From positions 8,804,001 through 8,868,000 of the forward strand of contig JAPNXP010000002.1 in assembly GCA_028753945.1 (NCBI GenBank): DNA of 64,000 bases. Reading direction: 5' to 3'. This DNA is from Hexactinellida sp. DTS-2022. Its lineage: Eukaryota; Porifera; Hexactinellida. The notes under the pieces were generated by a model. That model saw only the letters and a list, made by a program, of their open reading frames with translations. It was not told where the DNA came from and made no database searches. This document shows positions 34,195-59,968 of the stretch, one piece after another (positions within the stretch are counted from its first letter, which is position 1; each line of letters starts with the position of its first letter). The position numbers were made by a program, and so were the translations under genes.

Positions 34195-34653
34195 GTTAAC
34201 TTAAAGTATGTATTTTTGACTAATATTGACCCACACTTGAACAGCACAACCATCCAGGGGGAGGGTAGACTGTCCACTTAGTATATTGTTTGACGGCGTC
34301 AACTTTATTTTGAAACAAATTATATATATTTCTCTGATATTAAGCTTCACTTCAACAAACACATCAGTACAGGGGAAGGAGGAGCCAGTCCATTTAGTAT
34401 TATTTGACGTAGTTGACCTAGTTTAACTCAAAGTATGTATATTTGACTAATATTGACCCACACTTGAACAGGCACAACCATCCAGGGGGAGGGTAGACTG
34501 TCCACTTAGTATATTGTTTGACGGCGTCAACTTTGTTTTGAAACAAATTATATATATTTCTCTGATATTAAGCTTCACTTCAACAAACACATCAGTCCAG
34601 GGGAAGGGGGGAGCCAGTCCACTTAGTATATTATTTGTAGTATTTCACCTATT
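34195..34653 (+). repeat. Satellite S1, four monomers
   Basis: Two copies of the roughly 228-bp dimer (ACCCACACTTGAACAG... AGACTGTCCACTTAG... GACGGCGTCAACTTT... CTTCACTTCAACAAACAC... GAGCCAGTCCA). It is nearly identical to the reverse complement of monomers in 43088-54222. The block stops exactly at the TTAA flanking the F3 element at 34658, inside a monomer (ACCTATTTTAA). Confidence 0.88.
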
Positions 34654-34657
34654 TTAA

Positions 34658-35355
34658 GGTTCAGGTATCCTCTAGAATACTTCTACCATAACTATTCACC
34701 CGAATGAAATAATTTTTTTACAGCGGATTTACTTCATCCTCAGGATGCCAAAAATACGATAATATTGGCAAATAAACTAATAGAGGAAAAGTCCTTTTTT
34801 AAATTTTACAATTTTTGCAGAATAGATCAAAGAGAAAAGATAAACAATACCAAGAATATTATTGATGAAATGTGTTTACCTGGATGTAATATAACTTTTG
34901 AGTACAGGAATTGTGAATATCTACATTTTTCTGGATTTCAAATTCTTTTATGTGATGTCGATTTTCAAATGAAGATTTCCTTATCCAAAATCCAAAAAAC
35001 AGATGAACTATTCATATTAGGGTAAATCGCAGCACTGAAAAGTTGTATCTTTACGAGATCTCTCCGAAACTGTTGAGTTTTTGATTCTATGACCAAAATT
35101 CACAAAATAACTTCTTCCGCAATTCTGAAAATGTTAGTTTTGAGGTATCGGCTTTTGAAAAAAAAATTTACACCAATTATTCCTAAATTGAGGTGACAAA
35201 AGTGTGTCAAACTGGAAGAATAATGGGAATCTTTCTTAGAAATCTCTTGAGAGTACTCATTGGTATCAATACAATCCCAAAATGCAGTAAAAGAGAAATA
35301 GACAATGATTTGGATTTTATCTAAATATTCGAAATTTATAGAGTATACCTGAACC
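34658..35355. mobile_element. F3 TTAA-flanked element (698 bp)
   Basis: TTAA (34654-34657, 35356-35359) flanks GGTTCAGGTATCCTCTA and its mirror TAGAGTATACCTGAACC. The first 120 bp match the right end of the element at 59412-59964 (ACTTCTACCA, ACCCGAAT, GCGGATT.ACTTCATC). An 86-codon open frame at 34765-35025 reads through the middle but has no recognisable domain; it could be a remnant. Confidence 0.72.
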
Positions 35356-35539
35356 TTAAATATCTAATTCCTGATAACCATGAAGCAACTAGAATATACA
35401 AATTTTGATTTCACATCTAAATTCCACGTGGTCGAAATACGCTAGGGGGAATTCCAGGTCAACTCAACCAGTCATTTCACCAACTTTCTCGGATTTGCCT
35501 GTAACTTCGTTAGTTAGTAGACAATGGTCTGTCATTTAA

Positions 35540-38700: not shown

Positions 38701-38769
38701 GTAAGTTATATATAGCTTTAAAATATTACGCAAATTTATTAGGAAAGTAACAACAGTTCGTACCTTTAA

Positions 38770-40570
38770 GGTTATCCTGTATTGATATTCGGGCGAATAC
38801 GGTGAATCTCAGAATTGCATAATTTACCACTAGGAATACTCTAGATGAGATAGAGATTGACTTTTATGATTTTTTTTTCTTAATTTTCAATAAAGATGGT
38901 GTTTTTTAATAAAATATGACGTCCACTTCCTATATGGGCATGGCAATTTTTCAAAATTGTTGAATCTTTTTGAATTTTTGAACATATTATTATGAGACTA
39001 TTTCCTCTCAATATTAATTTTTATTTTTTTTATTTTTGCAGAAGAAACGATGCTATAGGAGATTTTTTCAAAATAATTATATAAAGCTGTAGTGCACTAA
39101 ACTAGCGTGATAAAATTTTAGAAGATAATTTTTCAATTCTAGATCAAGGGTCTGAGGATGGATCATGTGTTACCCCAGAGAAATCATTTGACTTTGTGAT
39201 AATTATTCTTGGTTTTATAAGCATTCTAGGGCTGCGGCCCACGAATTTCTCCGAATTTCAGCATCAAAAGTGGTGATAAAATTCTGCATTGCGATATATT
39301 GTGTCCCAAAATTATAAAATTCGGAATCTACAGGACAAAATATATAGGTTCACGTCAAAAAGTTCAGGAATATGTCAAAAATCAGGAAATTAGGGGTATA
39401 AAAGAAGATGAAGGGTATGCAAGTATACGGTGATTTTATATTACTGTGGCAAATTGGACTGCAGGATAATTCTGTTATTCTTCATAAAAGTGCGTCAGCT
39501 TCTTATCTATGCGTAGCATTTGGTTTCAACACTTTACAATAATATATCATGAGTTATGACCAATTTATGACTATGATTTTGTCTGTTTTGTCATATTTTC
39601 ACACCTCAAGGCCCTCAAATATACATTAATTTATTATATAAATCCCCAATTTGGTAATACAAAGATGGAAATAGCATTTGCGCACAAAATGAGACGTTAC
39701 ACGACACGATCCAATCATTATTCGATAGGTTATGGACTTTTGGGCCACAGAAGGGGGCAAAAAATCTGATATTTCACACCTGTTGATATTTCAGAAACGC
39801 TTTGAGATAAAATGATTATAGCCATTAGAAAATACTGTAAATACCTGACATTTATACGTTTATAATACATTTTAGGACTCTAGGTGTCACACTTTTTAAC
39901 ATGACCATTTATGGTAATTTGATGTGCCCAATTTTGATGACGAAGCAAATTTTCTAACTCTTGATCTCTGGACAGCAGAGACTAGCTCTAAAATTCTAAT
40001 CACATCATGATACTATTTCTTACTCATTGGATAAACTTTTGGGATAATATTATAAATCGAATGATGTGTTCTGATTTAAATGCCCAAATATGGTGGTGTC
40101 AGAGTGGCAATATGTTAATAAGCTGACAAAAATCCAACTTTTGATCCAAATGAGATAGAGCTTAGCTCTAAATTGCAAAAAATAGTCTAATTCAATTTCA
40201 AATGACATTATCTATTTTATGCAGTTTTGGAACTCCTTTTCTTCGCACTTTCATATTCTGGACTCAGCCACTTCGACACAAATTAATTTTGTTCTAATTA
40301 TGAAGGTGTAAAAAAAGACCATTTGGGCAGAATGATGTAAAAAAGAGAAGTTTTATTCCAGAAAGTCAAACATATTTTTAAAATGCTCAGTATATGTAGG
40401 CGCATGTTTTAAAAGCGGGCAATTTTGGCATTATAATACAAAAAAATTCAATTAGTATACTTCTAATGCAAAATAGTGGGGTTTTTTTACCAATTTCACA
40501 AAAATGACAATAACATAGAGTAGATTTAAAAAAAGCATATTTCGGTTCTATTTAAAACATTGAGTATTGA
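38770..40570 (-). mobile_element. F4 element, partial copy (inverted relative to 57343-59383)
   Basis: Begins after TTAA (38766-38769) with GGTTATCCTGTATTGATATT. It is the reverse complement of 57577-59383 along about 1.8 kb (for example AACATGCGCCTAC/GTAGGCGCATGTTTTAAAAG blocks, CATTTTGTGCGCAAATGC, GACACGATCCAATCATTA). Homology stops at GAGTATTGA (40570), where a hAT-like tip CAGGGCCGTGCC begins. The last 230 bp and second TTAA end are missing. AT-rich, no coding region seen. Confidence 0.8.
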
Positions 40571-40742
40571 CAGGGCCGTGCCTCTAATGCAAACTGCCCA
40601 TGTCAAACATGGGCAGAATTTTTCCAGACCATGTTCTGACCAGGTTGACCTGGTCATATGACCAGGTCAACCTGGTCATTTAACCAGGCCAACCTGGTCA
40701 TCTGACCAGGTCACAACCTGGTCATTTAACCAGGTCAACCAA
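40571..40742. repeat. hAT-like tip followed by ACCAGGTCAACCTGGTCA palindromes
   Basis: CAGGGCCGTGCC resembles a hAT terminus, with a small hairpin CTGCCCATG...CATGGGCAG beside it. Next come about six alternating copies of GACCAGGT and ACCTGGTC separated by CATATGA, CATTTAA or CATCTGA, so the run can fold on itself in several registers. No opposite hAT end or 8-bp duplication of AGTATTGA was found. Confidence 0.6.
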
Positions 40743-41221
40743 AACAATATTTAAAGTTTAATCTAGTATAATTTTCTAGCGAAAACTCAAATAAAGGAAC
40801 TATCATAGCCTACTATACATAAGGCCTCACAGTAACAATTGAAATTTGGACCAGGGATGAGGTCGCCGATCGATTATGAAAATGACGATTTGTTCTTCCG
40901 ATTGTCAAATTTGGTCAATCATGGTCTACCAAACATAAGACTTCACTTTTTTAAGCGAAATTTGGACCAAGGATGCGGTTGCAGTCGTAATTTCTAAATG
41001 AACCACAATGTTAAATAGTTAGTGTTTAGTAATTATTAATTTACCAAAACAATAGAAAATTCATTTGAATATATAATTTGATTGTATTATGTTTTTAGTA
41101 AGTCATGTAATCAGTGGATATTGAGTCTCTCTGTTCTTCTGGTGTATAAACTTTGTTTTAACCGTACTTAATTTTGTTTACTTGTACTACCTTAGCTTTT
41201 AGTATTGTTTAATTTTCAAAA
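40743..41221. other. 5' flank of the P-element gene
   Basis: AT-rich, with a repeated GAAATTTGGACCA(G/A)GGATG word (about 40847 and 40962). Should contain the promoter of the THAP gene; no core element can be named. No terminal repeat of the P element was recognised. Confidence 0.35.
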
Positions 41222-43089
41222 ATGCCTAATTGCTGCTCGGCTCCTGGCTGCAAAAGCAACTACAGATCTTCTTCAGAAATTGTACCAGTTTTCAAATTAC
41301 CACAAAATCCACCTGAACTCAGACACTCCTGGTTTAGGGCTCTTCGGAGGGATGATTTAGTTGAATTGAAGGCTGTTTATATTTGCGTGAAACATTTCCG
41401 CGAAGAAGATATAGAATACAGACACAAAGTTCCAAATGGAGATGGAACTTTCCGTGAAATCCCTCGAGTCAGCCCAAAGCTGAAAGATGGCGCTGTACCA
41501 GTTTATCTACCCTGTTGTCCATCATACTATCAATCTAGTGCTAAGCGCAGGCGTCCCCTCGACTTAAGAGAATATGAACTATTCAACCCAACTTTAACAC
41601 TTAGCTTGAATTCAGAAGCTGAAGAGGTTGAGAAGTTCGAGATTAACAGTTTACATGATATTCCTGACAAGTTATCTTTGCTTCCCTTGCCAAAAACATG
41701 GTCATTATGGTATCCTGACGAAAACAGTATAATTTTGCGCCCAAGTCTAATAAATAGCGATATCCTAGTAAATAAGTACTTGATAGTACATTCTGATCTA
41801 TCTGCTAGAGCCAATTGTAATGGAAAACCTTGATCGCTTTCGCTAAACTCAATTAGTGATATACGACAACTTGAAACGATTATTGGTGAAATTTCTAAAT
41901 CAACACATCCCTGTGAATCTTTTGTTTCTGAGACGACTGGTTCACATATCTCTTTAGCGAAAGACCATATCCAACAAGCCATCAATACTTTGCAAACTAA
42001 TGAATCCGATTTAGAATCAACTGATTATCCAGAACTTTCAAGACTGCAGTTCATACAATGCCAGTTAGAAAACAGCCTCGTCCCTCAAAACAGGCGTAGA
42101 TATAATGTACTAACACAAGTTTTGGCTCTTAAAACACATTTAATTTCTCCAGCCTGTTATAAATATCTCCAGCAGATGCTTTGTCTAACTCTTCCTCATG
42201 TCAATACTCTACTCAAGTTATATTCTTCATATGGCCTTGAAAGTGACTATTTTCCCTTCCTCAAACAAGCGACTCATTCTTTCTCTGATCCTGAAAAACA
42301 TGTAATTGTCCAAATGGACGAAATTCATGTCAAATCGGATATTTCATATATTGGTGGTAAGATATATGGTGCTAGTTTAAGACCAGAAGATCCGGTCAAA
42401 ACTGTATTCGCTATCATGGTCTCTAGTCTTCAGAAAAAATGGCCTGTATTGTTCGAATGTTATCCTGTGCTTCTCTTTCAGCGGAAAGGATATTCGCTAT
42501 AGTGGTATTATGTATTCAAGATCTAGAGCTTTGTGGTTTAGTTGTAGATATTATCTCTACCCACAACTATCCTCTCAATGTAAAATTATTCAAACTCTTC
42601 TCTAAAAATGGTAAGCTGGAAACTCAAGTACCGCATCCTTCTGATCCAAATCGGATCCTATTTCTCACCTTTGATTTTGTGCACATATTGAAGACAATAC
42701 GAAATAACTGGTTGAATCTAAAGTCAGAGAGTAAAAGTTTTATTTACCCTAATTTAGAAGATATACAAACAAATTATTGTTCCTATCCTTTGAGACTGTG
42801 CACAGCTTCTTTCCGCGATGTCCGTACCTTATATCTTTCTGAGAAAGAAAGCTTGGCAAAACTAGATCCAAGGCTAACATTTAAAGCATGTTTTCCTTCT
42901 TGTTTAGAACGTCAGAATGTGAAATTAGTTTTAAATGTCATACATGAATCCACAATATCTGCTTTAACCATTCAAAATGACCAACGTTGTGCTGCATATA
43001 AATCTAATACTTCAGATTTTCTTGACATTGTCTTATCTTTATGGAAAATGTTCAATGTAAATGCTCCATACAAGCATGTTCGTTTAAAC
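41222..43089 (+). pseudogene. THAP/P-element transposase, 5' part (interrupted)
   Basis: The ATG opens a canonical THAP DNA-binding finger: C5 and C10 (CSAPGC), W37, C55 and H58 (ICVKHF), and the AVP box at 91-93 (GAVPVYL). After a spacer (LLPLPKTWSLW) a TGA at 41831-41833 breaks the frame. The same frame continues (NSISDIRQLE) into the RNase-H-like core (VIVQMDEIHVK, with the first catalytic Asp). A frameshift near 42445 leads to SAERIFAIVV, CGLVVDIISTHNYPLNVKLF, PHPSDPNRILFLTFDFVHIL, IRNNWLN and SCLERQNVKL, all typical of P-element/THAP9-type transposases. Coding stops inside HVRLN where satellite DNA starts at a TTAA (43084-43087). The next piece is at 57226. Non-functional as it stands. 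Confidence 0.88.
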
Positions 43090-46000
43090 TAGGTCAACTA
43101 CGTCAAATAATTACTAAGTGGACTGGCTCCCCCCTTCCCCTGGACTGATGTGTTTGTTGAAGTGAAGCTTAATATCAGAGAAATATATATAATTTGTTTC
43201 AAAACAAAGTTGACGCCGTCTAACAATATACTAAGAGGACAGTCTACCCCTCCCCCTAGCTGGTTGTGCCTGTTCAAGTGTGGGTCAATATTAGTCAAAT
43301 ATACATACTTTGAGTTAAACTAGGTCAACTACGTCAAATAATTACTAAATGGACTGGCTCCCCCTTCCCCTGGACTGATGTGTTTGTTGAAGTGAAGCTT
43401 AATATCAGAGAAATATATATAATTTGTTTCAAAATAAAGTTGACGCCGTCAAACAATATACTAAGTGGACAGTCTACCCTCCCCCTGGATGGTTGTGCTG
43501 TTCAAGTGTGGGTCAATATTAGTCAAATATACATACTTTGAGTTAAACGAGGTCAACTACGTCAAATAATTACAAATGGACTGGCTCCCCCTTCCCCTGG
43601 CCGGATGTGTTTGTTGAAGTGAAGCTCAATATTAGTCAAATATACATAATTTGTGTTAAAATAGGTGAAATACTACAAATAATAGACTAAGTTGACTGTC
43701 TACCCCTTCTCCTGGACGTATGTGTTAGTTGAAGTGAAGCTCAATATCAGAGAAATATATATAATTTGTTTCAAAACAAAGTTGACGCAGTGAAACAATA
43801 TACTAAGTGGACAGTCTACACTCCCCCTGGATGGTTGTGCCTGTTCAAGTGTGGGTCAATATTAGTCAAATATACATACTTTGAGTTAAACTAGGTCAAC
43901 TACGTCAAATAATTACTAAGTGGACTGGCTCCCCCCTTCCCCTGGACTGATGTGTTTGTTGAAGTGAAGCTTAATATCAGAGAAATATATATAATTTGTT
44001 TCAAAACAAAGTTGACGCCGTCTAACAATATACTAAGAGGACAGTCTACCCCTCCCCCTAGCTGGTTATGCCTGTTCAAGTGTGGGTCAATATTAGTCAA
44101 ATATACATACTTTGAGTTAAACTAGGTTAACTACGTCAAATAATTACTAAATGGACTGGCTCCCCCTTCCCCTGGACTGATGTGTTTGTTGAAGTGAAGC
44201 TTAATATCAGAGAAATATATATAATTTATTTCAAAATAAAGTTGACGCCGTCAAACAATATACTAAGTGGACAGTCTACCCTCCCCCTGGATGGTTGTGC
44301 TGTTCAAGTGTGGGTCAATATTAGTCAAATATACATACTTTGAGTTAAACGAGGTCAACTACGTCAAATAATTATAAATGGACTGGCTCCCCCTTCCCCT
44401 GGCCGGATGTGTTTGTTGAAGTGAAGCTCAATATTAGTCAAATATACATAATTTGTGTTAAAATAGGTGAAATACTACAAATAATAGACTAAGTTGACTG
44501 TCTACCCCTTCTCCTGGACGTATGTGTTAGTTGAAGTGAAGCTCAATATCAGAGAAATATATATAATTTGTTTCAAAACAAAGTTGACGCAGTGAAACAA
44601 TATACTAAGTGGACAGTCTACACTCCCCCTGGATGGTTGTGCCTGTTCAAGTGTGGGTCAATATTAGTCAAATATACATACTTTGAGTTAAACTAGGTCA
44701 ACTACGTCAAATAATTACTAAGTGGACTGGCTCCCCCCTTCCCCTGGACTGATGTGTTTGTTGAAGTGAAGCTTAATATCAGAGAAATATATATAATTTG
44801 TTTCAAAACAAAGTTGACGCCGTCTAACAATATACTAAGAGGACAGTCTACCCCTCCCCCTAGCTGGTTATGCCTGTTCAAGTGTGGGTCAATATTAGTC
44901 AAATATACATACTTTGAGTTAAACTAGGTTAACTACGTCAAATAATTACTAAATGGACTGGCTCCCCCTTCCCCTGGACTGATGTGTTTGTTGAAGTGAA
45001 GCTTAATATCAGAGAAATATATATAATTTGTTTCAAAATAAAGTTGACGCCGTCAAACAATATACTAAGTGGACAGTCTACCCTCCCCCTGGATGGTTGT
45101 GCTGTTCAAGTGTGGGTCAATATTAGTCAAATATACATACTTTGAGTTAAACGAGGTCAACTACGTCAAATAATTATAAATGGACTGGCTCCCCCTTCCC
45201 CTGGCCGGATGTGTTTGTTGAAGTGAAGCTCAATATTAGTCAAATATACATAATTTGTGTTAAAATAGGTGAAATACTACAAATAATAGACTAAGTTGAC
45301 TGTCTACCCCTTCTCCTGGACGTATGTGTTAGTTGAAGTGAAGCTCAATATCAGAGAAATATATATAATTTGTTTCAAAACAAAGTTGACGCAGTGAAAC
45401 AATATACTAAGTGGACAGTCTACACTCCCCCTGGATGGTTGTGCCTGTTCAAGTGTGGGTCAATATTAGTCAAATATACATACTTTGAGTTAAACTAGGT
45501 CAACTACGTCAAATAATTACTAAGTGGACTGGCTCCCCCCTTCCCCTGGACTGATGTGTTTGTTGAAGTGAAGCTTAATATCAGAGAAATATATATAATT
45601 TGTTTCAAAACAAAGTTGACGCCGTCTAACAATATACTAAGAGGACAGTCTACCCCTCCCCCTAGCTGGTTGTGCCTGTTCAAGTGTGGGTCAATATTAG
45701 TCAATATACATAATTTGAGTTAAACTAGGTCAACTACGTCAAATAATTACTAAATGGACTGGCTCCTCCTTCCCCTGGACTGATGTGTTTGTTGAAGTGA
45801 AGCTTAATATCAGAGAAATATATATAATTTGTTTCAAAACCAAATTGACGCCGTCAAACAATATACTAAGTGAACAGTCTACCCTCCCCCTAGCTAGTTG
45901 TGCCTGTTCAAGTGTGGGTCAATATTAGTCAAATATACATAATTTGAGTTAAACTAGGTCAACTACGTCAAATAATTACTAAATGGACTGGCTCCCCCTT

Positions 46001-49000
46001 CCCCTGGACTGATGTGTTTGTTGAAGTGAAGCTTAATATCAGAGAAATATATATAATTTGTTTCAAAATAAAGTTGACGCCGTCAAACAATATACTAAGT
46101 GGACAGTCTACCCTCCCCCTGGATGGTTGTGCTGTTCAAGTGTGGGTCAATATTAGTCAAATATACATACTTTGAGTTAAACTAGGTCAATTACGTCAAA
46201 TAATTACTAAATGGACTGGCTCCCCCTTCCCCTGGCCGGATGTGTTTGTTGATGTGAAGCTCAATATTAGTCAAATATGCATAATTTGAGTTAAAATAGG
46301 TGAAATACTACAAATAATAGACTAAGTTGACTGTCTACCCCTTCCCCTCGACGTATGTGTTAGTTGAAGTGAAGCTCAATATCACAGAAATATATATAAT
46401 TTGTTTCAAAACAAAGTTGACGCAGTGAAACAATATACTAAGTGGACAGTCTACCCTCCCCCTAGCTGGTTGTGCCTGTTCAAGTGTGGGTCAATATTAG
46501 TCAAATATACATAATTTGAGTTAAACTAGGTCAATTACGTCAAATAATTACTAAATGGACTGGCTCCCCCTTCCCCTGGACTGATGTGTTTGTTGAAGTG
46601 AAGCTTAATATCAGAGAAATATATATAATTTGTTTCAAAATAAAGTTGACGCCGTCAAACAATATACTAAGTGGACAGTCTACCCTCCCCCTGGATGGTT
46701 GTGCTGTTCAAGTGTGGGTCAATATTAGTCAAATATACATACTTTGAGTTAAACTAGGTCAATTACGTCAAATAATTACTAAATGGACTGGCTCCCCCTT
46801 CCCCTGGCCGGATGTGTTTGTTGATGTGAAGCTCAATATTAGTCAAATATGCATAATTTGAGTTAAAATAGGTGAAATACTACAAATAATAGACTAAGTT
46901 GACTGTCTACCCCTTCCCCTGGACGTATGTGTTAGTTGAAGTGAAGCTCAATATCACAGAAATATATATAATTTGTTTCAAAACAAAGTTGACGCAGTGA
47001 AACAATATACTAAGTGGACAGTCTACCCTCCCCCTAGCTGGTTGTGCCTGTTCAAGTGTGGGTCAATATTAGTCAAATATACATAATTTGAGTTAAACTA
47101 GGTCAATTACGTCAAATAATTACTAAATGGACCTGCTCCCCCTTCCCTTGGACTGATGTGTTTGTTGAAGTGAAGCTTAATATCAGAGAAATATATATAA
47201 TTTGTTTCAAAATAAAGTTGACGCCGTCAAACAATATACTAAGTGGACAGTCTACCCTCCCCCTGGATGGTTGTGCTGTTCAAGTGTGGGTCAATATTAG
47301 TCAAATATACATAATTTGAGTTAAACTAGGTCAACTACGTCAAATAATTACTAAATGGACTGGCTCCCCCTTCCCCTGGACTGATGTGTTTGTTGAAGTG
47401 AAGCTTAATATCAGAGAAATATATATAATTTGTTTCAAAATAAAGTTGACGCCGTCAAACAATATACTAAGTGGACAGTCTACCCTCCCCCTGGATGGTT
47501 GTGCTGTTCAAGTGTGGGTCAATATTAGTCAAATATACATACTTTGAGTTAAACTAGGTCAATTACGTCAAATAATTACTAAATGGACTGGCTCCCCCTT
47601 CCCCTGGCCGGATGTGTTTGTTGATGTGAAGCTCAATATTAGTCAAATATGCATAATTTGAGTTAAAATAGGTGAAATACTACAAATAATAGACTAAGTT
47701 GACTGTCTACCCCTTCTCCTGGACGTATGTGTTAGTTGAAGTGAAGCTCAATATCAGAGAAATATATATAATTTGTTTCAAAACAAAGTTGACGCAGTGA
47801 AACAATATACTAAGTGGACAGTCTACACTCCCCCTGGATGGTTGTGCCTGTTCAAGTGTGGGTCAATATTAGTCAAATATACATACTTTGAGTTAAACTA
47901 GGTCAACTACGTCAAATAATTACTAAGTGGACTGGCTCCCCCCTTCCCCTGGACTGATGTGTTTGTTGAAGTGAAGCTTAATATCAGAGAAATATATATA
48001 ATTTGTTTCAAAACAAAGTTGACGCCGTCTAACAATATACTAAGAGGACAGTCTACCCCTCCCCCTAGCTGGTTATGCCTGTTCAAGTGTGGGTCAATAT
48101 TAGTCAAATATACATACTTTGAGTTAAACTAGGTTAACTACGTCAAATAATTACTAAATGGACTGGCTCCCCCTTCCCCTGGACTGATGTGTTTGTTGAA
48201 GTGAAGCTTAATATCAGAGAAATATATATAATTTGTTTCAAAATAAAGTTGACGCCGTCAAACAATATACTAAGTGGACAGTCTACCCTCCCCCTGGATG
48301 GTTGTGCTGTTCAAGTGTGGGTCAATATTAGTCAAATATACATACTTTGAGTTAAACGAGGTCAACTACGTCAAATAATTATAAATGGACTGGCTCCCCC
48401 TTCCCCTGGCCGGATGTGTTTGTTGAAGTGAAGCTCAATATTAGTCAAATATACATAATTTGTGTTAAAATAGGTGAAATACTACAAATAATAGACTAAG
48501 TTGACTGTCTACCCCTTCTCCTGGACGTATGTGTTAGTTGAAGTGAAGCTCAATATCAGAGAAATATATATAATTTGTTTCAAAACAAAGTTGACGCAGT
48601 GAAACAATATACTAAGTGGACAGTCTACACTCCCCCTGGATGGTTGTGCCTGTTCAAGTGTGGGTCAATATTAGTCAAATATACATACTTTGAGTTAAAC
48701 TAGGTCAACTACGTCAAATAATTACTAAGTGGACTGGCTCCCCCCTTCCCCTGGACTGATGTGTTTGTTGAAGTGAAGCTTAATATCAGAGAAATATATA
48801 TAATTTGTTTCAAAACAAAGTTGACGCCGTCTAACAATATACTAAGAGGACAGTCTACCCCTCCCCCTAGCTGGTTGTGCCTGTTCAAGTGTGGGTCAAT
48901 ATTAGTCAATATACATAATTTGAGTTAAACTAGGTCAACTACGTCAAATAATTACTAAATGGACTGGCTCCTCCTTCCCCTGGACTGATGTGTTTGTTGA

Positions 49001-52000
49001 AGTGAAGCTTAATATCAGAGAAATATATATAATTTGTTTCAAAACAAAATTGACGCCGTCAAACAATATACTAAGTGAACAGTCTACCCTCCCCCTAGCT
49101 AGTTGTGCCTGTTCAAGTGTGGGTCAATATTAGTCAAATATACATAATTTGAGTTAAACTAGGTCAATTACGTCAAATAATTACTAAATGGACTGGCTCC
49201 CCCTTCCCCTGGACTGATGTGTTTGTTGAAGTGAAGCTTAATATCAGAGAAATATATATAATTTGTTTCAAAATAAAGTTGACGCCGTCAAACAATATAC
49301 TAAGTGGACAGTCTACCCTCCCCCTGGATGGTTGTGCTGTTCAAGTGTGGGTCAATATTAGTCAAATATACATACTTTGAGTTAAACTAGGTCAATTACG
49401 TCAAATAATTACTAAATGGACTGGCTCCCCCTTCCCCTGGCCGGATGTGTTTGTTGATGTGAAGCTCAATATTAGTCAAATATGCATAATTTGAGTTAAA
49501 ATAGGTGAAATACTACAAATAATAGACTAAGTTGACTGTCTACCCCTTCTCCTGGACGTATGTGTTAGTTGAAGTGAAGCTCAATATCAGAGAAATATAT
49601 ATAATTTGTTTCAAAACAAAGTTGACGCAGTGAAACAATATACTAAGTGGACAGTCTACACTCCCCCTGGATGGTTGTGCCTGTTCAAGTGTGGGTCAAT
49701 ATTAGTCAAATATACATACTTTGAGTTAAACTAGGTCAACTACGTCAAATAATTACTAAGTGGACTGGCTCCCCCCTTCCCCTGGACTGATGTGTTTGTT
49801 GAAGTGAAGCTTAATATCAGAGAAATATATATAATTTGTTTCAAAACAAAGTTGACGCCGTCTAACAATATACTAAGAGGACAGTCTACCCCTCCCCCTA
49901 GCTGGTTGTGCCTGTTCAAGTGTGGGTCAATATTAGTCAATATACATAATTTGAGTTAAACTAGGTCAACTACGTCAAATAATTACTAAATGGACTGGCT
50001 CCTCCTTCCCCTGGACTGATGTGTTTGTTGAAGTGAAGCTTAATATCAGAGAAATATATATAATTTGTTTCAAAACAAAATTGACGCCGTCAAACAATAT
50101 ACTAAGTGAACAGTCTACCCTCCCCCTAGCTAGTTGTGCCTGTTCAAGTGTGGGTCAATATTAGTCAAATATACATAATTTGAGTTAAACTAGGTCAACT
50201 ACGTCAAATAATTACTAAATGGACTGGCTCCCCCTTCCCCTGGACAGATGTGTTTGTTGAAGTGAAGCTTAATATCAGAGAAATATATATAATTTGTTTC
50301 AAAATAAAGTTGACGCCGTCAAACAATATACTAAGTGGACAGTCTACCCTCCCCCTGGATGGTTGTGCTGTTCAAGTGTGGGTCAATATTAGTCAAATAT
50401 ACATACTTTGAGTTAAACTAGGTCAATTACGTCAAATAATTACTAAATGGACTGGCTCCCCCTTCCCCTGGCCGGATGTGTTTGTTGATGTGAAGCTCAA
50501 TATTAGTCAAATATGCATAATTTGAGTTAAAATAGGTGAAATACTACAAATAATAGACTAAGTTGACTGTCTACCCCTTCCCCTGGACGTATGTGTTAGT
50601 TGAAGTGAAGCTCAATATCACAGAAATATATATAATTTGTTTCAAAACAAAGTTGACGCAGTGAAACAATATACTAAGTGGACAGTCTACCCTCCCCCTA
50701 GCTGGTTGTGCCTGTTCAAGTGTGGGTCAATATTAGTCAAATATACATAATTTGAGTTAAACTAGGTCAATTACGTCAAATAATTACTAAATGGACCTGC
50801 TCCCCCTTCCCTTGGACTGATGTGTTTGTTGAAGTGAAGCTTAATATCAGAGAAATATATATAATTTGTTTCAAAATAAAGTTGACGCCGTCAAACAATA
50901 TACTAAGTGGACAGTCTACCCTCCCCCTGGATGGTTGTGCTGTTCAAGTGTGGGTCAATATTAGTCAAATATACATAATTTGAGTTAAACTAGGTCAACT
51001 ACGTCAAATAATTACTAAATGGACTGGCTCCCCCTTCCCCTGGACTGATGTGTTTGTTGAAGTGAAGCTTAATATCAAAGAAATATATATAATTTGTTTC
51101 AAAATAAAGTTGACGCCGTCAAACAATATACTAAGTGGACAGTCTACCCTCCCCCTGGATGGTTGTGCTGTTCAAGTGTGGGTCAATATTAGTCAAATAT
51201 ACATACTTTGAGTTAAACTAGGTCAATTACGTCAAATAATTACTAAATGGACTGGCTCCCCCTTCCCCTGGCCGGATGTGTTTGTTGATGTGAAGCTCAA
51301 TATTAGTCAAATATGCATAATTTGAGTTAAAATAGGTGAAATACTACAAATAATAGACTAAGTTGACTGTCTACCCCTTCTCCTGGACGTATGTGTTAGT
51401 TGAAGTGAAGCTCAATATCAGAGAAATATATATAATTTGTTTCAAAACAAAGTTGACGCAGTGAAACAATATACTAAGTGGACAGTCTACACTCCCCCTG
51501 GATGGTTGTGCCTGTTCAAGTGTGGGTCAATATTAGTCAAATATACATACTTTGAGTTAAACTAGGTCAACTACGTCAAATAATTACTAAGTGGACTGGC
51601 TCCCCCCTTCCCCTGGACTGATGTGTTTGTTGAAGTGAAGCTTAATATCAGAGAAATATATATAATTTGTTTCAAAACAAAGTTGACGCCGTCTAACAAT
51701 ATACTAAGAGGACAGTCTACCCCTCCCCCTAGCTGGTTATGCCTGTTCAAGTGTGGGTCAATATTAGTCAAATATACATACTTTGAGTTAAACTAGGTTA
51801 ACTACGTCAAATAATTACTAAATGGACTGGCTCCCCCTTCCCCTGGACTGATGTGTTTGTTGAAGTGAAGCTTAATATCAGAGAAATATATATAATTTGT
51901 TTCAAAATAAAGTTGACGCCGTCAAACAATATACTAAGTGGACAGTCTACCCTCCCCCTGGATGGTTGTGCTGTTCAAGTGTGGGTCAATATTAGTCAAA

Positions 52001-54222
52001 TATACATACTTTGAGTTAAACGAGGTCAACTACGTCAAATAATTATAAATGGACTGGCTCCCCCTTCCCCTGGCCGGATGTGTTTGTTGAAGTGAAGCTC
52101 AATATTAGTCAAATATACATAATTTGTGTTAAAATAGGTGAAATACTACAAATAATAGACTAAGTTGACTGTCTACCCCTTCTCCTGGACGTATGTGTTA
52201 GTTGAAGTGAAGCTCAATATCAGAGAAATATATATAATTTGTTTCAAAACAAAGTTGACGCAGTGAAACAATATACTAAGTGGACAGTCTACACTCCCCC
52301 TGGATGGTTGTGCCTGTTCAAGTGTGGGTCAATATTAGTCAAATATACATACTTTGAGTTAAACTAGGTCAACTACGTCAAATAATTACTAAGTGGACTG
52401 GCTCCCCCCTTCCCCTGGACTGATGTGTTTGTTGAAGTGAAGCTTAAACTAGGTCAACTACGTCAAATAATTACTAAATGGACTGGCTCCCCCTTCCCCT
52501 GGCCGGATGTGTTTGTTGAAGTGAAGCTCAATATTAGTCAAATATACATAATTTGAGTTAAAATAGGTGAAATACTACAAATAATAGACTAAGTTGACTG
52601 TCTACCCCTTCCCCTGGACTGATGTGTTTGTTGAAGTGAAGCTTAATATCAGAGAAATATATATAATTTGTTTCAAAACAAAGTTGACGCAGTGAAACAA
52701 TATACTAAGTGGACAGTCTACACTCCCCCTGGATGGTTGTGCCTGTTCAAGTGTGTGTCAATATTAGTCAAATATATATACTTTGAGTTAAACTAGGTCA
52801 ACTACGCCAAATAATTACTAAATGGACTGGCTCCCCCTTCCCCTGGACTGATGTGTTTGTTGAAGTGAAGCTTAATATCAGAGAAATATATATAATTTGT
52901 TTCAAAATAAAGTTGACGCCGTCAAACAATATACTAAGTGGACAGTCTACCCTCCCCCTGGATGGTTGTGCCTGTTCAAGTGTGGGTCAATATTAGTCAA
53001 ATATACATACTTTGAGTTAAACTAGGTCAACTACGTCAAATAATTACTAAATGGACTGGCTCCCCCTTCCCCTGGACTGATGTGTTTGTTGAAGTGAAGC
53101 TTAATATCAGAGAAATATATATAATTTGTTTCAAAATAAAGTTGACGCCGTCAAACAATATACTATGTGGACAGTCTACCCTCCCCCTGGATGGTTGTGC
53201 TGTTCAAGTGTCGGTCAATATTAGTCAAATATACATACTTTGAGTTAAACTAGGTCAACTACGTCAAATAATTACTAAATGTACTGGCTCCCCCTTCCCC
53301 TGGCCGGATGTGTTTGTTGAAGTGAAGCTCAATATTTGTCAAATATACATAATTTGAGTTAAAACAGGTGAAATACTACAAATAATAGACTAAGTTGACT
53401 GTCTACCCCTTCCCCTGGACGTATGTGTTAGTTGAAGTGAAGCTCAATATCAGAGAAATATATATAATTTGTTTCAAAACAAAGTTGACGCAGTGAAACA
53501 ATATACTAAGTGGACAGTCTACCCTCCCCCTGGATGGTTGTGCCTGTTCAAGTGTGGGTCAATATTTGTCAAATATACATACTTTGAGTTAAACTAGGTC
53601 AACTACGTCAAATAATTACTAAGTGGACTGGCTCCCCCCTTCCCCTGGACTGATGTGTTTGTTGAAGTGAAGCTTAATATCAGAGAAATATATATAATTT
53701 GTTTCAAAACAAAGTTGACGCCGTCAAACAATATACTAAGTGGACAGTCTACCCTCCCCCTGGATGGTTGTGCCTGTTCAAGTGTGGGTCAATATTAGTC
53801 AAATATACATACTTTGAGTTAAACTAGGTCAACTACGTCAAATAATTACTAAATGGACTGGCTCCCCATTCCCCTGGACTGATGTGTTTGTTGAAGTGAA
53901 GCTTAATATCAGAGAAATATATATAATTTGTTTCAAAATAAAGTTGACGCCGTCAAACAATATACTAAGTGGACAGTCTACCCTCCCCCTGGATGGTTTT
54001 GCTGTTCAAGTGTGGGTCAATATTAGTCAAATATACATACTTTGAGTTAAACTAGGTCAACTACGTCAAATAATTACTAAATGGACTGGCTCCCCCTTCC
54101 CCTGGCCGGATGTGTTTGTTGAAGTGAAGCTCAATATTAGTCAAATATACTTAATTTGAGTTAAAATAGGTGAAATACTACAAATAATAGACTAAGTTGA
54201 CTGTCTACCCCTTCCCCTGGAC
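43088..54222 (-). repeat. Satellite S1 array, seven-monomer 801-bp higher-order repeats
   Basis: About 11.1 kb of roughly 115-bp monomers (from GTGGAC-type landmarks at 43119, 43235, 43349, 43465, 43576, 43691, 43807, 43920). Seven monomers form an 801-802 bp unit. A diagnostic monomer pair recurs at 43098, 43900, 44702, 45504, 47907, 48709, 49740 and 51571; the 45504-47907 gap is three units, while 49740 and 51571 are off register, so the array has rearranged blocks. Copies are nearly identical, implying recent homogenisation. Monomer landmarks are ACTAAGTGGACAGTCTACCC, GGATGGTTGTGC, TGTGGGTCAATATTAGTC, GAAGTGAAGCT and AAGTTGACGC. Repeated 66-codon frames on the minus strand are by-products. 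Orientation is opposite to the S1 blocks at 18.6 and 34.2 kb. Confidence 0.95.
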
Positions 54223-56907
54223 CAGGGGCGGTCCCAGGATCTGGCAGTCCCGGGGCCGGGGCGGGGCAAAGATTTCAAAACCGGGGCAGTATTGTTTTTC
54301 TAGTTTGTATAATATTAATAATATACGTACTATATATCCACTTCATTATAAGATAACAACATATATTGAGTGTAGGCTTTTACTGAACGTAGAATACTAT
54401 TGCAATAAATTGAAAATACAGTCACTCCCAAATAATGATACATTGGGACGTGAGGTATATGCTAGCCTAAGGTATATATATCTAGAATTGTATTACCTAC
54501 ACACAATGAAGACTCAATGAACCTGTTGTTTGCTTTGGCAAAATCATCTACAATTTCCCCTATATCAAAACTAATGTCCTTATTTAAAGACAATAGTATT
54601 AGTGGGCCCAGTCTTTCGTCTGCCATTGTTGATCGGAGAAATGTTTTGATCAGGTTCAGGCGCGAGAAAGTCCTCTCAGCTGACGCTGTGACTACTGGGA
54701 GCGAATGGGCAATTTGATACAAAACCAAGACTGAACAGAAAATGTGACGCCCCTGGTGTTCCAGATATTTCCATACATCTCGAGTATCAGAAGGTTTCCC
54801 GCCCTCTGCTTCAGGGAGTGTCTCAAGCGTGATCTTAAGAAAATTTAGTTCCATCTCAACCTTTAAAGCGTCACCTGGGATTAAATGTTTGTACTTTTCA
54901 TATAGAGGTTTGACGATGGTCCAATTAAGGAATCTAGTATTATCGTTCCCTGTGGGAGTTTTCGGTTGTAGTGCACCAAGTGCAAGATATAATGGTCTGC
55001 TATGTTCAGCAAATCTCTCGTTCAGACAGTGCAACATATCATTGATCATCTCATTATATATGTTAGATGCTACATCCTCCCCAATTTCTCCAATGTTAGC
55101 AGCTGTACTGCGTAATTTACGACGCCTCATCAAATAGAGGTTTGATTCAAAATAAATTTTTCTAGAATCTTCGAATATGTCGGAAAATTTCTCACGGGCT
55201 TCCGTCAATGCCTGCCGTAGGATAGCGAGTAGAGACATCGCCTGATTTAGGTCACAGTCGACAGATTGGAGCATTCTGTTTAGCACAAAAGCTTTCCCGG
55301 TGAGCTCCATTAACGCTCCGTTAAAGAACAAGAATTCTAATGTGCACCTTTGTAAGAGGTTTCTCGCCTTTGTACCTCTTTCTCCCTTTTCCTCTGATAA
55401 AGAAGTTAAAGCATCAACTATGCTTGTGAAAGTCAGACGTACAGCTGCGTTTGCCCTGTATTGGTAAGCCCATCTAGTTTTACTGAAGCTCTTTAAGGTC
55501 ACTGCAGCAATATGCCGCTTGCATTTTCCACTCAGCTCCTTTGGACCAGCCGCGATAGGGTGAATATCATCGACACAGCAATTGTCACTATCCTCAGAAA
55601 TGTCAGAATCCTCAGAGTCTTCAATCCTATTTTGGACTTCTTCTACTACTTCTACTTGATCCATACGAAATTCCCTAAATCTAACATCGTTCGCAGTTTT
55701 CAATACTGCTGCACAGACTGATCCAGAAAAGAAATTGTGAAGGTCCTTCAGGGTAGCATAACAATCAGCGCATTCTTGACGCTCCAGGCAAGAGGAAACT
55801 AGAGCGAGGTTCAATTTATGACAGTAGCAATGCACATACCTTAAATGTGGATTTACTTGAGTCAAGAGAGTTGCTACTCCCCCACGACATCCTGACATCA
55901 CGCTCGCTCCATCGAAGGAAATACCAGTACAGTATTCCCAAGATAGAGTAAGTTCTGCAATTACATCATTGATTATATTTGTAAGACTAACAGCATCCAA
56001 TCTTTCGGTACCAATGACCTTCATCGTACGTTCCTGAATTTTCCCCTCAGCTTTCAAATATCGCACTCCAACAGCAACTTGTTCAACCTTTGCTCGATCT
56101 TTAGTCTCGTCAGCAAAAACACTGAATAATCTCAACTTCTTGACTTCTGACGATATTTTTCTAGTGACATAAACTCCCATTGTTATGATTAGTTCATTTT
56201 GGATACGTTTGCTGAGATACGTTGCATTCTTCGTGGGGTTGTTGAGTTTGCCAGCAATCATTTTGTCATGCCTTCCAATTAGCATCATTAACTCAAGAAA
56301 ATTCCCACGGTTTGAACTACTATCGCCTACCATTCCAGGAATAACATCGCTTGTGCAGGCTTCCCTGTGTCCACGAATTCCAATATTCTGCCTTGCACAA
56401 TATAGCAGGGCCTCGATGATTGACACAATATATGCCCTGTTTTCTATCACCTGCTTGTCGTGGTTTTTGTCAATCAATTCAGTAACAGACTTTCCGAACT
56501 TTTCGGTTTTCAGGTAGTCTTGATACGTTATCAATGCGTTAATATGTTGTGCATTCGACTCGTGCTCCGTCAGTCTCTCCGAGTGTCTGAAATTGGTCCA
56601 TCCACCTGTTGAAGAAAAGCTTGACTTCACCCCACCAAACCAGCTACAACAAAAACAAAAGCCAGCGTCCTTGATGAGTGAGTATTCCAACCATGGCCTG
56701 TCCTTGTACCACCCAACCTTGAAATTTCTACATTTTTGGGAAATGCGTGGGTTAACTGGCTGAACTGGAGTGTCAGACTTTGACTTACTAATATCTTCAG
56801 GACGTAAATCCGAAGCTACATGCAAAGCGAAGCGTTTAGGATTGGGCAATGACAATAGTTGACTTTCAGCCATCTATAGAAGCTATTTAATCGATATAAT
56901 ATATATA
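54223..56907 (-). mobile_element. hAT transposon, left end present, right end not found
   Basis: The tip CAGGGGCGGTCCCAGG at 54223 directly follows S1 satellite (CCCCTGGAC). The transposase CDS is on the minus strand, so this is the element's 3' end. No mirror-image tip appears between 56874 and 57225, and satellite DNA does not resume on the right. The right limit given is only the start of the neighbouring MITE. The right end is lost, or was removed by rearrangement at the satellite edge. Confidence 0.7.
54462..56873 (-). CDS. Intact hAT transposase (ZMYM/TTF-type), 803 aa
   Basis: An uninterrupted frame from ATG 56873 to the stop at 54462. An N-terminal TTF-type zinc finger (about 45-110) has GFCFCCSWFGG and RLTEHESNAQH. 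The catalytic core has ADETKDRAKVEQ (Asp 255), GISFDGASVMSG (Asp 321), YVHCYCHKLNLAL (about 345-358) and SKTRWAYQYRA (Trp 468). An acidic insert at about 415-437 (EDSEDSDISEDSD) is part of the helical insertion domain. The C-terminal dimerisation region has TASAERTFSRLNLIKTFLR with catalytic Glu 733. All three catalytic residues are present and the length is normal for the family, so the protein could be active or recently active. It would cut and rejoin DNA at hAT ends in the nucleus. A MITE begins 35 bp upstream of the ATG, and the element's right end is not visible. Confidence 0.93.
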   Translation of the reverse strand: MAESQLLSLPNPKRFALHVASDLRPEDISKSKSDTPVQPVNPRISQKCRNFKVGWYKDRPWLEYSLIKDAGFCFCCSWFGGVKSSFSSTGGWTNFRHSERLTEHESNAQHINALITYQDYLKTEKFGKSVTELIDKNHDKQVIENRAYIVSIIEALLYCARQNIGIRGHREACTSDVIPGMVGDSSSNRGNFLELMMLIGRHDKMIAGKLNNPTKNATYLSKRIQNELIITMGVYVTRKISSEVKKLRLFSVFADETKDRAKVEQVAVGVRYLKAEGKIQERTMKVIGTERLDAVSLTNIINDVIAELTLSWEYCTGISFDGASVMSGCRGGVATLLTQVNPHLRYVHCYCHKLNLALVSSCLERQECADCYATLKDLHNFFSGSVCAAVLKTANDVRFREFRMDQVEVVEEVQNRIEDSEDSDISEDSDNCCVDDIHPIAAGPKELSGKCKRHIAAVTLKSFSKTRWAYQYRANAAVRLTFTSIVDALTSLSEEKGERGTKARNLLQRCTLEFLFFNGALMELTGKAFVLNRMLQSVDCDLNQAMSLLAILRQALTEAREKFSDIFEDSRKIYFESNLYLMRRRKLRSTAANIGEIGEDVASNIYNEMINDMLHCLNERFAEHSRPLYLALGALQPKTPTGNDNTRFLNWTIVKPLYEKYKHLIPGDALKVEMELNFLKITLETLPEAEGGKPSDTRDVWKYLEHQGRHIFCSVLVLYQIAHSLPVVTASAERTFSRLNLIKTFLRSTMADERLGPLILLSLNKDISFDIGEIVDDFAKANNRFIESSLCVGNTILDIYTLG

Positions 56908-57065
56908 CAGTAGAACTCGGTTAAGACGTACTCGCTTGGGAAACAATAAAAAGTACGTATTAACCGATTGTACGTCTTAACCGAGTACTATTCAATACAT
57001 TTTGTTCTTTTGGGAAGAATAATTTAGTACGTCTTAACCGAGTACGTCTTAACCGAGTTCTACTG
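56908..57065. mobile_element. pogo/Tc1-mariner-like MITE (158 bp)
   Basis: Ends CAGTAGAACTCGGTTAAGAC and its mirror GTCTTAACCGAGTTCTACTG are perfect over more than 20 bp; TA flanks both sides (56906-56907, 57066-57067). The interior repeats GTACGTCTTAACCGAGTAC. The TA target and CAGTAGAAC tip fit pogo/Tigger-type elements. It lies just upstream of the intact hAT CDS and could affect its promoter. Confidence 0.82.
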
Positions 57066-57225
57066 TATATATATAATATACATGTACTATATAAACAAAC
57101 TATGTAATGTAAACCAAATAATGTCTTCGTTCACTTGCCATAAAATAAACCAGTGACCGGAACTGGGCTCTGGGGTGTTAGGACAAAATTAAAATTAAGT
57201 ACAGAGGTAGTATTACAGGATAACT
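57066..57225. other. Right edge of the insertion in the P-element gene
   Basis: From the MITE to the TTAA at 57226-57229. The last bases before TTAA, read inward on the minus strand, are AGTTATCCTGTAATAC, which resembles F4 tips (GGTTATCCTGTATTG). This may be the right end of a TTAA element whose left end has been overrun by satellite. Confidence 0.45.
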
Positions 57226-57342
57226 TTAAACGATCCACCCTCTCAACCATTCACTTTAATGACGACCGCTTTGCCTTTTTAGATCGTATAGTTTGTTGGT
57301 TAGCCGCTTGGGATTCACTTCCTGGGAAAGATGGGAAATTAA
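57226..57342 (+). pseudogene. THAP/P-element transposase, middle fragment
   Basis: Starting at TTAAACGAT the frame reads LNDPPSQPFTL, the expected continuation of HVRLN at 43089 (P-element proteins usually have RLNDPFxxPF here). A frameshift near 57255 leads to DDRFAFLDRIVCWL, AAWDSLPGKDGKL. The fragment ends at TTAA 57339-57342 within GKL, where an F4 element is inserted; coding resumes at 59384. The shared TTTAAAC at both edges places the upstream insertion at TTAA. This fragment links the two sides of the nest. Confidence 0.75.
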
Positions 57343-59383
57343 GGGTATCCTGTACTGATATTTTGACACCCGACGACCTAATGTTATTATTGCGTTTTTG
57401 GATAGTGCTAAATATTCTAAGATATCCCTGAGATTATTAGAGTTCTACTATGTATATATCCCTAGTTATGAACTAGACAATGTCAATATAGGCCTAATCC
57501 ATACTAGCCAAGAAATTACAAAAATTTTTTATGTTAGTTTTTAGCGCGAAACATGTCAATTATAAATTATACCTGAGTCAATACTCAATGTTTTAAAAGA
57601 TCTCGAAATATGCTTTTTCTTTAATCTACTCTATGTTATTGTCATTTTTGTGAAATTGGTCAAAAATAACCACTTTTTTTCATTAAAAGTATACTAATTC
57701 AATTTTTTTGTATTATAATGGCTAAACTCAGGTCTTTTAAAACATGCGCCTACTTATCTTGAGCATTTTAAAAAAAAGTTTGACTTTCTAGAATAAAAAT
57801 TCTCTTTTTTACATCCATATGCCCAATTGGTCTTTTTTACACCTTCATAATTAGCATTTAATTAATTTGTGTCGAAGTGGCTGAGTCCAGAATATGAAAG
57901 TGCGAAGAAAAGGAGTTACTAAACTGCATAAAATAGATAATGTCATTTGAAATTGAATTATACTATTTTTATCAATTTAGAGCTAAGCTCTATCTCATTT
58001 GGATCAGAAGTTGGATTTTTGTCAGCTTTTTAACATATTGACACTTTGACACCACCATATTTGGGCATTTGAAATCAGAACACATCATTCGATTCATAAT
58101 ATAACCCCAAAAGTTTATCCAATGAGTAAGAAATAGTATCATGATGTGATTAGAATTTTAGAGCTAGTCTCTGGTGTCCAGAGATCAAGAGTTACAAAAT
58201 TTGCTTAGTCATCAAAATTGGGCACATCAAATTACCATATATGGTCATGTTAAAAAGTATGACACCTAGAACCCGAAAATGTATTATAAACGTATAGAAA
58301 GTCAGGTATTTACAGTATTTTCTGATGGCTATAATCATTATATCTCAAAGGGTTTCTGAAATATCAACAGGTGTGAAATGTGTGATTTTTTGCCCCCTGC
58401 TGTGGCCCAAAAGTCCATAACCTAACGAATAATGATTGGATCGTGTCGTGTAACGTCTCATTTTGTGCGCAAATGCTATTTCCATCTTTGTATTACCAAA
58501 TTGGGGTTTTATATAATACATTATTGCATATTTTAGGGCCTTGAGGTGTGAAAATATGACAAAACAGACAAAACCATAGTCATAAATTGGTCATAACTCA
58601 TGATATATTAATGTAAAAGTGTTGAAACCAAATGCTACGCATAGATAAGAAGCTGGCGCATTTTTCTGAAGAATAACAGAATTATTCTGCTGTCCAATTT
58701 CCCACAGTAATATATGAGAACCGGCTACTTGCATACCCTTCATATTCTTTTATGCCCCTAATTTCCTAATTTTTGACATATTCCTGAACTTTTTGACGTG
58801 AACCTGTATATTTTGACCTGTAGATTCCGAATTTTTTAATTTTGGGAACAATATATGGCAGTGCAGAATTTTATCACCTGATTTGTTGTTGAAATTCGGA
58901 AAAATTCGTGGGCCGCAGCCTTAGATTGCATATAAAACCAAAAATAATCATCAGAAAGTCAAAAAATTTCTCTGGGGTAACACATGATACATCTTCAGTC
59001 CCTTGAACTAGAATTGAAAAATTTTTCTCCTAATATTTTATAACGATAGTTTAGTGCACGACTGCGTTTTATGATTATTTTGAAAAAATGCCCTTTAGCA
59101 TCGTTTCTTCTGCAAAAATAGATAAAATAAAAATTATTACTGGGAGGAAATAGACTCATAATAATATGTTCAAAAATTCAAAAAGATTCAACAATTTTTA
59201 AAAAATGTCATGCCCATATAAGGAAGTCGACGTCTTATTATATTAAAAAACACCATCTTGATTGAAAATTAAGAAAAAAAAAATCATAGAAGTCAATCTC
59301 TATCTCATCTAGAGTATTCCTAGTAGCAAATTATGCAATTCTGAGATTCACCGTGAACGCCCGAATATCAATACAAGATACCC
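57343..59383 (+). mobile_element. F4 TTAA-flanked element, complete (2,041 bp)
   Basis: TTAA at 57339-57342 and 59384-59387. The left tip GGGTATCCTGTACTGATATT and the reverse complement of the right tip GGGTATCTTGTATTGATATT differ at two positions. It interrupts a transposase codon run (GKL before, LSKQTFTS after) so that removing it with one TTAA restores the frame, which proves the ends. No open frame of note inside, so non-autonomous. A partial inverted copy is at 38770-40570. Confidence 0.88.
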
Positions 59384-59411
59384 TTAAGCAAACAAACTTT
59401 CACAAGCTTAA
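59384..59411 (+). pseudogene. THAP/P-element transposase, third fragment
   Basis: Directly after the F4 element the bases read LSKQTFTSL, the expected continuation of the GKL at 57342 (P-element transposases have GKLSxQTFxSxRH at this point). Coding is lost at the next TTAA (59408-59411), where an F3-like element starts. The rest of the C-terminus was not found beyond 59968. Confidence 0.7.
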
Positions 59412-59964
59412 GGAGATAGATCCTCAAATTTTAAACACCCGATAACCCCCAATTATTATTGCACTTTTGGACAGTACAAGTTATTCTAAGAAGGACGTGG
59501 AAACTCAGAATTTCCAAACTCGACAAATTTGAATTAGATATTGATAGTTTAAAATAGCGTAATAGTGAATCCATACTAGTCAACGGCATTTCTAGCAATT
59601 TTCTCTGATTGGCGCAAGTTCTAATTTAGTGCCAATTTAAAACATAATTAGATTCAACCTTATTATTAGTTCTCATATACAAAAATTCAATAAATTCTGA
59701 ATTATTGTTCTCAAGATAGAACAATTTGAAAAAAACATCAAATCTGTTTTCTTCGAACCATGTATAATGCAATAATTATATTAACAGGGAAAACTTATCT
59801 GTTCCGCAAAATACGATTTTATAGAAGAAACAAATTTCACTGAGTTACCTAGATCGAATATTATTGCATTTTTGCCATCTAGAAGATGAAGTAATCCGCT
59901 CTAAAAAATTTAATTAATTCGGGTAAATACCTTTGGTAGAAGTGGTTTAGAGGATACCTGAACC
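59412..59964 (-). mobile_element. F3-like TTAA-flanked element (553 bp)
   Basis: TTAA at 59408-59411 and 59965-59968. The right end, inverted, reads GGTTCAGGTATCCTCTAAACC and matches the F3 element at 34658 for about 120 bp. The left end GGAGATAGATCC is followed by ACACCCGATAACC and ATTATTATTGCACTTTTGGA, which match the left interior of F4 at 57343. It looks like a hybrid or a link between F3 and F4. The middle matches 2146-2285. Confidence 0.6.
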
Positions 59965-59968
59965 TTAA

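Follow-up and report, generated by a model that had tools for sequence, protein, structure and literature searches.

The region considered here is a 64,000-nucleotide stretch of contig C11 from the sponge Hexactinellida sp. DTS-2022 (C11:8804001-8868000; hereafter the window), which has a GC content of 37% and belongs to a genome of 112.4 Mb in 18 contigs. It holds a P-type transposable element that is interrupted at successive TTAA sites, first by a 14.1-kb insertion beginning with an array of satellite DNA and then by a 2.0-kb insertion. The 5′ part of the P element occupies 40804-43087 of the forward strand, as indicated by reading frames, Pfam matches and 98.4% identity to L002, a complete P copy of 3,714 bp in the same genome. 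Its inverted-repeat end (40804-40971, forward strand) matches the 3′ end of L002 in inverted orientation over 168 bp at 97.6% identity, so that the inverted ends of this family measure about 170 bp and are longer than those of the Drosophila P element, which are 31 bp. Coding sequence of THAP/P transposase type starts at 41222, carries a stop at 41831 and a frame change near 42480, and reaches CATGTTCGT followed by TTAA at 43084-43087; it picks up again after the TTAA at 57226-57229, breaks at the TTAA at 57339-57342 and restarts at the TTAA at 59384-59387. The middle piece (57226-57342, forward strand, about P2285-2402) is 95% identical to L002, and the third piece (59384-59411, forward strand, P2399-2426), recognized by its sequence and its alignment to P copies, ends at a third TTAA.

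Pfam comparison of the first piece gave a THAP match over the cut-off (41222-41830; E 2.1e-12), a TNP-like_RNaseH_N match just under it (41990-42499; E 4.1e-5, 24.3 vs 24.6 bits), a Tnp_P_element helix-turn-helix match slightly under it (41990-42499; E 5.3e-4, 20.8 vs 23 bits) and a TNP-like_GBD match far under it (42439-43089; E 0.042, 14.7 vs 24.8 bits). The profile search suggested in an earlier note on this DNA, made from the sequence alone, thus recovered THAP in the first piece but is silent for the middle piece, since the 58-amino-acid frame there (57255-57428) had no Pfam match. The decisive check was the other one suggested there, namely whether P copies elsewhere run unbroken across the two joints. 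The window pieces were joined by script and compared with the same-genome loci L002-L030, and all 21 counted copies that span both joints (43087/57230 and 57342/59388) were uninterrupted. These comprise 19 copies close to the window sequence, at about 92-98% identity, and two more distant ones at 72% (L028 and L029); loci forming one P copy were merged (L015 with L021), and fragments short of the joints were left out (L016, L018, L019, L020, L022, L023 and L027). A second P fragment in L030 (69% identity), outside the 21, also crosses both joints unbroken. The uninterrupted copies, together with the exact TTAA at each joint, confirm that the pieces were formerly continuous, that the P element is older than the insertions and that it was split at TTAA by insertions of 14.1 and 2.0 kb, all as the earlier note had claimed. 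Assembly error was considered as a source of the split and rejected, judging from the exact TTAA at both joints and the resumption of P in order.

The element has the features of the P/THAP9 superfamily, with THAP, P-type helix-turn-helix and RNase H matches in order, inverted ends and target duplications in the expected range of 7-8 bp, the last seen through other copies: 7-bp flanking duplications were found by eye in three of the four complete P copies viewed (L002, L003 and L005). The fourth, L004 (C13:4510758-4515804), lies in a palindrome with perfect inverted flanks of at least 24 bp. The duplication of the window copy itself is not visible because its 3′ end is lost, and this copy differs from the superfamily pattern by its stop, its frame change and its three TTAA breaks. 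The nested P element is therefore real but ordinary, and is useful mainly as an order of events. Two further observations concern P sequences: tandem palindromic TGACCAGGTCAACCTGGTCAT repeats lie at 40637-40740, about 60 bp upstream of the P terminus, and three P fragments of equal score on C7 (1337397, 1352339 and 1367282) are spaced by about 14.94 kb, as if in a large tandem duplication.

The second insertion (57339-59387, forward strand) is an ordinary non-autonomous TTAA element. It is a complete 2,049-bp member of a family, here called F, that was recognized from its inverted arms and genome copies, with 24-bp terminal inverted repeats that are 92% complementary and a duplicated TTAA, and no frame of 70 codons or more was found wholly within it. 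Among 852 first-look candidates, 40 were scored, which included, besides the window copy, 36 of full length (2,048-2,052 bp) and three partial ones; within this scored set most full-length copies show 95% identity and the best 99%. A diverged, truncated F copy also lies beside the P element on the reverse strand (38766-40571; 91.6% to 57577-59387). Family F resembles non-autonomous elements of piggyBac and Kolobok type in being flanked by TTAA, in inverted ends that begin TTAAGG and in its near-uniform size. As Kolobok, too, targets TTAA (PMC6004289), F may belong to either superfamily.

The three-part split described in the earlier note stands at both joints but was incomplete, since the P element breaks a third time at the TTAA at 59408-59411 and has lost its 3′ half. 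Alignments of the close P copies, except L026, leave the window at 59412, and no remaining P sequence was found past 59411 up to C11:8874000, 6 kb beyond the window. The sequence that takes over (59408-59638, forward strand; TTAAGGAGATAG...) is the end of a TTAA element of another family, G, and is 85% identical to an insert in L026 (C14:2430600-2434377), where a G element of about 0.87 kb with inverted ends occupies the same P TTAA as window 59408. Because L026 is a diverged copy (within P sequence it is 92.1% identical to the window, L002 98.1%), two independent hits at this site seem likelier than common descent; exchange between copies may also account for it. Farther on, a D-family TTAA element is represented by its right part (D693-883; 59780-59968, forward strand, 89%), after which come TTAA and non-P sequence.

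The first insertion is of a different kind. It extends from 43084 to 57229 with TTAA on both sides, is absent in 21/21 counted spanning P copies, and consists of satellite DNA on the left, an hAT gene inside and an F-like right end. Its left end is the satellite itself, with the unit TTAAACTAGGTCAACTACG sitting on the TTAA of P and the terminus reading TTAAACTAGG; accordingly, the satellite DNA came with, or as, the 14.1-kb insertion. The right end (57206-57229, reverse strand; TTAAAGTTATCCTGTAATACTACC read inward) agrees with the F terminus at 14/16 bases, and a genome search for these 24 bp at up to three mismatches returned a single occurrence, itself. The two ends do not form matching terminal inverted repeats, the left TTAAACTAGGTC... 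and the right TTAAAGTTATCC... agreeing weakly beyond TTAA. Nor is the array enclosed by the inverted ends of a single element, as in a satellite borne by a miniature inverted-repeat transposable element (MITE), for P coding sequence abuts the satellite at TTAA. A short inverted-repeat sequence with inverted arms (ACAGTAGAACTCGGTTAAGACGTAC; 56894-57079) matches many places in the genome, near query positions 2672-2761.

The satellite array (43084-54222, forward strand) is 11.1 kb long and is built of monomers of about 115 bp (TTAAACTAGGTCAACTACG...) with higher-order periods of 572, 802 and 1031 bp, as determined by Tandem Repeats Finder (TRF) and autocorrelation. Among 17 sampled 400-bp segments, eight (starts 43084-50284, reaching about 50700) are 98.8-100% identical to the unit 572, 802 or 1031 bp further on, and the last three (from 51484) reach at most 78% identity at these distances. 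Later local homogenisation of the array is thereby supported, although satellite growth after the insertion, as the earlier note had ordered the events, becomes doubtful given that the 14.1-kb insertion has satellite as its left terminus. Within the array, TRF splits the tract at an odd joint (AAGC/TTAA/ACTAGG; 52444-52447, forward strand) that joins two different monomer TTAA sites. Sequence comparison also revealed a short tract of the same satellite on the reverse strand (34193-34657), with TTAA at both ends and a TTAA element of D type (34654-35359) as its neighbour. At 18646-24310 a satellite of about 115 bp, related to that of the array but diverged from it, adjoins a 69/70-bp satellite family; the left end of this related satellite is at TTAA as well.

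The array is followed on the reverse strand by the hAT element (54223-57165), which was delimited by its frame and Pfam matches and has its left terminus, CAGGGGCGG, at 54223. The gene (54462-56873, reverse strand) is open over 803 codons and encodes an hAT transposase with its dimerisation domain (DUF4371, E 1.7e-19, over the cut-off; Dimer_Tnp_hAT, E 2e-4, 21.5 vs 21.4 bits). The 8-bp target duplication sought for it reached 5/8 at best, with no matching duplication, and the best candidate for its uncertain right terminus, at 57165, is weak (8/12, with a flank lacking a repeat), so that the intact hAT transposon of the earlier note is only partly borne out. No other full-length match to this element was found among those scored; elsewhere only fragments of the family matched, the best at 84-86% identity, though the window gene is open.

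With no matching duplication, loss or exchange beside the hAT element is likely, and this bears on whether plain nesting could have produced the locus. An F-like element would have inserted at 43084 in P and later lost its left end, by deletion or by exchange with a satellite array, the loss ending at TTAA by chance. The F-like right end and the probable loss beside the hAT element both fit such a history, but the junction is exact at the TTAA of P as well as at that of the satellite, and TTAA proved common at satellite ends sampled elsewhere, which together make this course of events quite unlikely.

Those satellite ends were drawn from the best matches listed, the window, neighbouring stretches and ten short stretches chosen from the same listing. 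Borders were set by local alignment; tract ends from a monomer hidden Markov model were rejected as borders, since these follow monomer phase. A total of 42 ends was computed, five of which were set aside because they marked the end of a locus or an internal break. In the remaining set, 26/37 ends lie within 2 bp of a TTAA, where the same flanks predict 2.39 and the maximum over 200,000 simulations was 10. A recognized TTAA family faces 11 of the 26, eight of these belonging to elements with satellite on both sides, i.e., elements inserted into satellite, and the other 15 face none. Ten of the 15 family-less ends, including the P joint itself, have 0.6-43 kb of outward sequence (the other five have less than 300 bp), and a search of these ten for an inverted partner gave none that was convincing, the best being 11/16 (among 123 and 144 TTAA tested). 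At another of the ten ends (C11:5995297), the left end TTAAACTAGG meets internal sequence of a D element at D687-690, and this same left end forms the odd array joint at 52444. Moreover, several of the end TTAAs, examined by eye, sit where the monomer elsewhere has TCAA, TTGA or CTAA.

Two controls were available. Interruption points in other P copies fall at TTAA in three clear cases out of 21, or in five if sites merely containing TTAA are included (by eye), and of the 16 ends belonging to eight further TRF intervals in the window (five of these intervals being parts of a single array), one lies at TTAA. The latter figure and the gathering of 26/37 sampled ends at one tetramer (TTAA being the only tetramer scored) speak against microhomology, in which TTAA would be a short shared sequence used in ordinary end joining; four bases may be enough for such joining, the DNA is AT-rich and one satellite end is at a palindrome rather than TTAA (C11:5997050), yet we regard this origin as very improbable. 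The satellite could instead be a repeat at the terminus or in the interior of a TTAA element, with TTAAACTAGGTCAAC as its true left terminus, and the array would then have moved as a normal transposon. The same left end does recur in P, beside D, at 52444 and at C11:6007388, and the Xstir repeat on Xmix offers a precedent (PMC6004289 and PMC12628747). Nevertheless, TTAA ends also occur at other monomer phases, and the genome search gave a single occurrence of the 24 bp at the right end of the window insertion, so that movement as a normal transposon appears unlikely.

Taken together, the 26/37 ends at TTAA, the 15 without a family and the lack of a convincing partner for the ten tested suggest that the satellite DNA probably arrived by cutting and joining at TTAA, perhaps by alternative transposition. 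Judged from sequence, the 14.1-kb insertion would thus not be a normal element. We give about even credence to the full course of events, in which P was hit by TTAA-specific transposition and the 14.1-kb insertion was built by cutting and joining at TTAA, followed by homogenisation and by loss on the hAT side.

Several points weigh against this reconstruction. More than 2 bp separate 11/37 ends from any TTAA; three of these computed ends overrun the border of a TTAA-carrying element (C11:4716248, C11:5996580 and C12:824703), and the other eight lie away from TTAA (C11:5618657, 5621503, 5997050, 6008099, 7420322 and 9232520; window 20739 and 54222, the latter being the hAT border). Two of the 26 TTAA ends, L082 and L086, have a flank in common and probably represent a single end that was duplicated, and the sample represents the best matches listed rather than the whole genome. 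For four of the ten tested family-less ends the search covered less than 1.5 kb, and decayed TTAA elements could be missed. The junction with D is one-sided, the remainder of D being absent in 14 kb downstream, and the reference D copy has CTAA at the D687-690 junction, so that a TTAA at that site before insertion is inferred. Furthermore, the ends of F were matched to no transposase of the genome, and alleles with and without the 14.1-kb insertion were not seen at the locus.

A possible source of the activity is present in the genome, which contains 57 piggyBac (PF13843) domain matches, several in long open frames. Of these, 37 are on C11, a contig that makes up 13.8% of the genome and also holds most of the listed satellite matches. 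One such gene lies beside the window (C11:8869650-8871526); the stretch examined for it showed no clear inverted ends. Cleavage by piggyBac leaves TTAA overhangs that are repaired without loss. A rearrangement at L009 (C12:2154458-2159389) is what one would predict were TTAA-bounded segments able to be cut out and rejoined in either orientation: a TTAA-to-TTAA segment of about 1 kb (positions 445-1504), comprising the first 368 bp of P and 683 bp of flank, is inverted with both TTAA sites exact. Separately, some piggyBac genes occur as opposite-strand pairs of equal score, as if in large palindromes (C11:4928457/4938567, 5004528/5008793 and 10780310/10785053; C5:2680771/2691172), and C12:723200-733800 and C11:7420300-7432600, each with a satellite tract and, 5-9 kb beyond it, fragments of piggyBac genes, share one satellite end with a common flank and are probably a duplicated block.

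A piggyBac-type transposase was probably behind the TTAA transposition into P. Under the proposed mechanism, it would cut the TTAA end of an F-like element together with a bare TTAA lying within a satellite array or next to it. Joining could then proceed by alternative transposition through the ends of two elements, or a satellite segment, once released, could be ligated by way of its TTAA overhangs. Alternative transposition by a TTAA enzyme would free satellite segments with TTAA at both ends, fitting any TTAA gap, and such a segment, though lacking its own inverted repeat, could be joined to the TTAA of P. The array would then be homogenised by local unequal exchange, and the hAT element with adjoining loss or exchange would remove the stretch between the satellite and the right end. 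More broadly, and only tentatively, TTAA-cutting transposases may scatter satellites as bare passengers without inverted repeats, so that a satellite family becomes TTAA-bounded genome-wide.

A satellite starting on TTAA is a new form of association between satellite and transposon, and is more interesting than the nested insertion. How satellites spread to new chromosome positions is an old question that has been explained mainly by circles, Helitrons and growth inside an element; satellite ends gathered at TTAA, one of them inside P, would make a transposase route testable by a simple count and an excision assay. Titles and opening lines of abstracts on satellites with piggyBac or TTAA, a body of literature in which subscription journals were largely uncovered, contained nothing on TTAA-bounded satellites.

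The nearest known systems share some of these features. In Xenopus, as set out in PMC6004289 and PMC12628747, the Xstir/Xmix tandem repeats on TTAA MITEs are amplified internal sequence of the element; there, as in the window, arrays are tied to TTAA elements, whereas in the window it is the array that forms the terminus on the target TTAA. Alternative transposition in maize employs the ends of two elements and joins the intervening DNA into a circle (PMC3744419). The mechanism proposed here would likewise employ the ends of two elements, but the maize system involves a hAT enzyme with 8-bp duplications and was demonstrated by genetics, whereas ours involves TTAA and is deduced from sequence comparison. 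Abrupt satellite ends with transposon neighbours are also found among Helentron-borne satellites (PMC7492417) and in a mollusc satellite survey, whose abstract (PMC5139131) reports non-random junctions in one examined satellite only, within a palindrome. In contrast to the mollusc satellites as described there, the sampled ends of the window satellite gather at TTAA.

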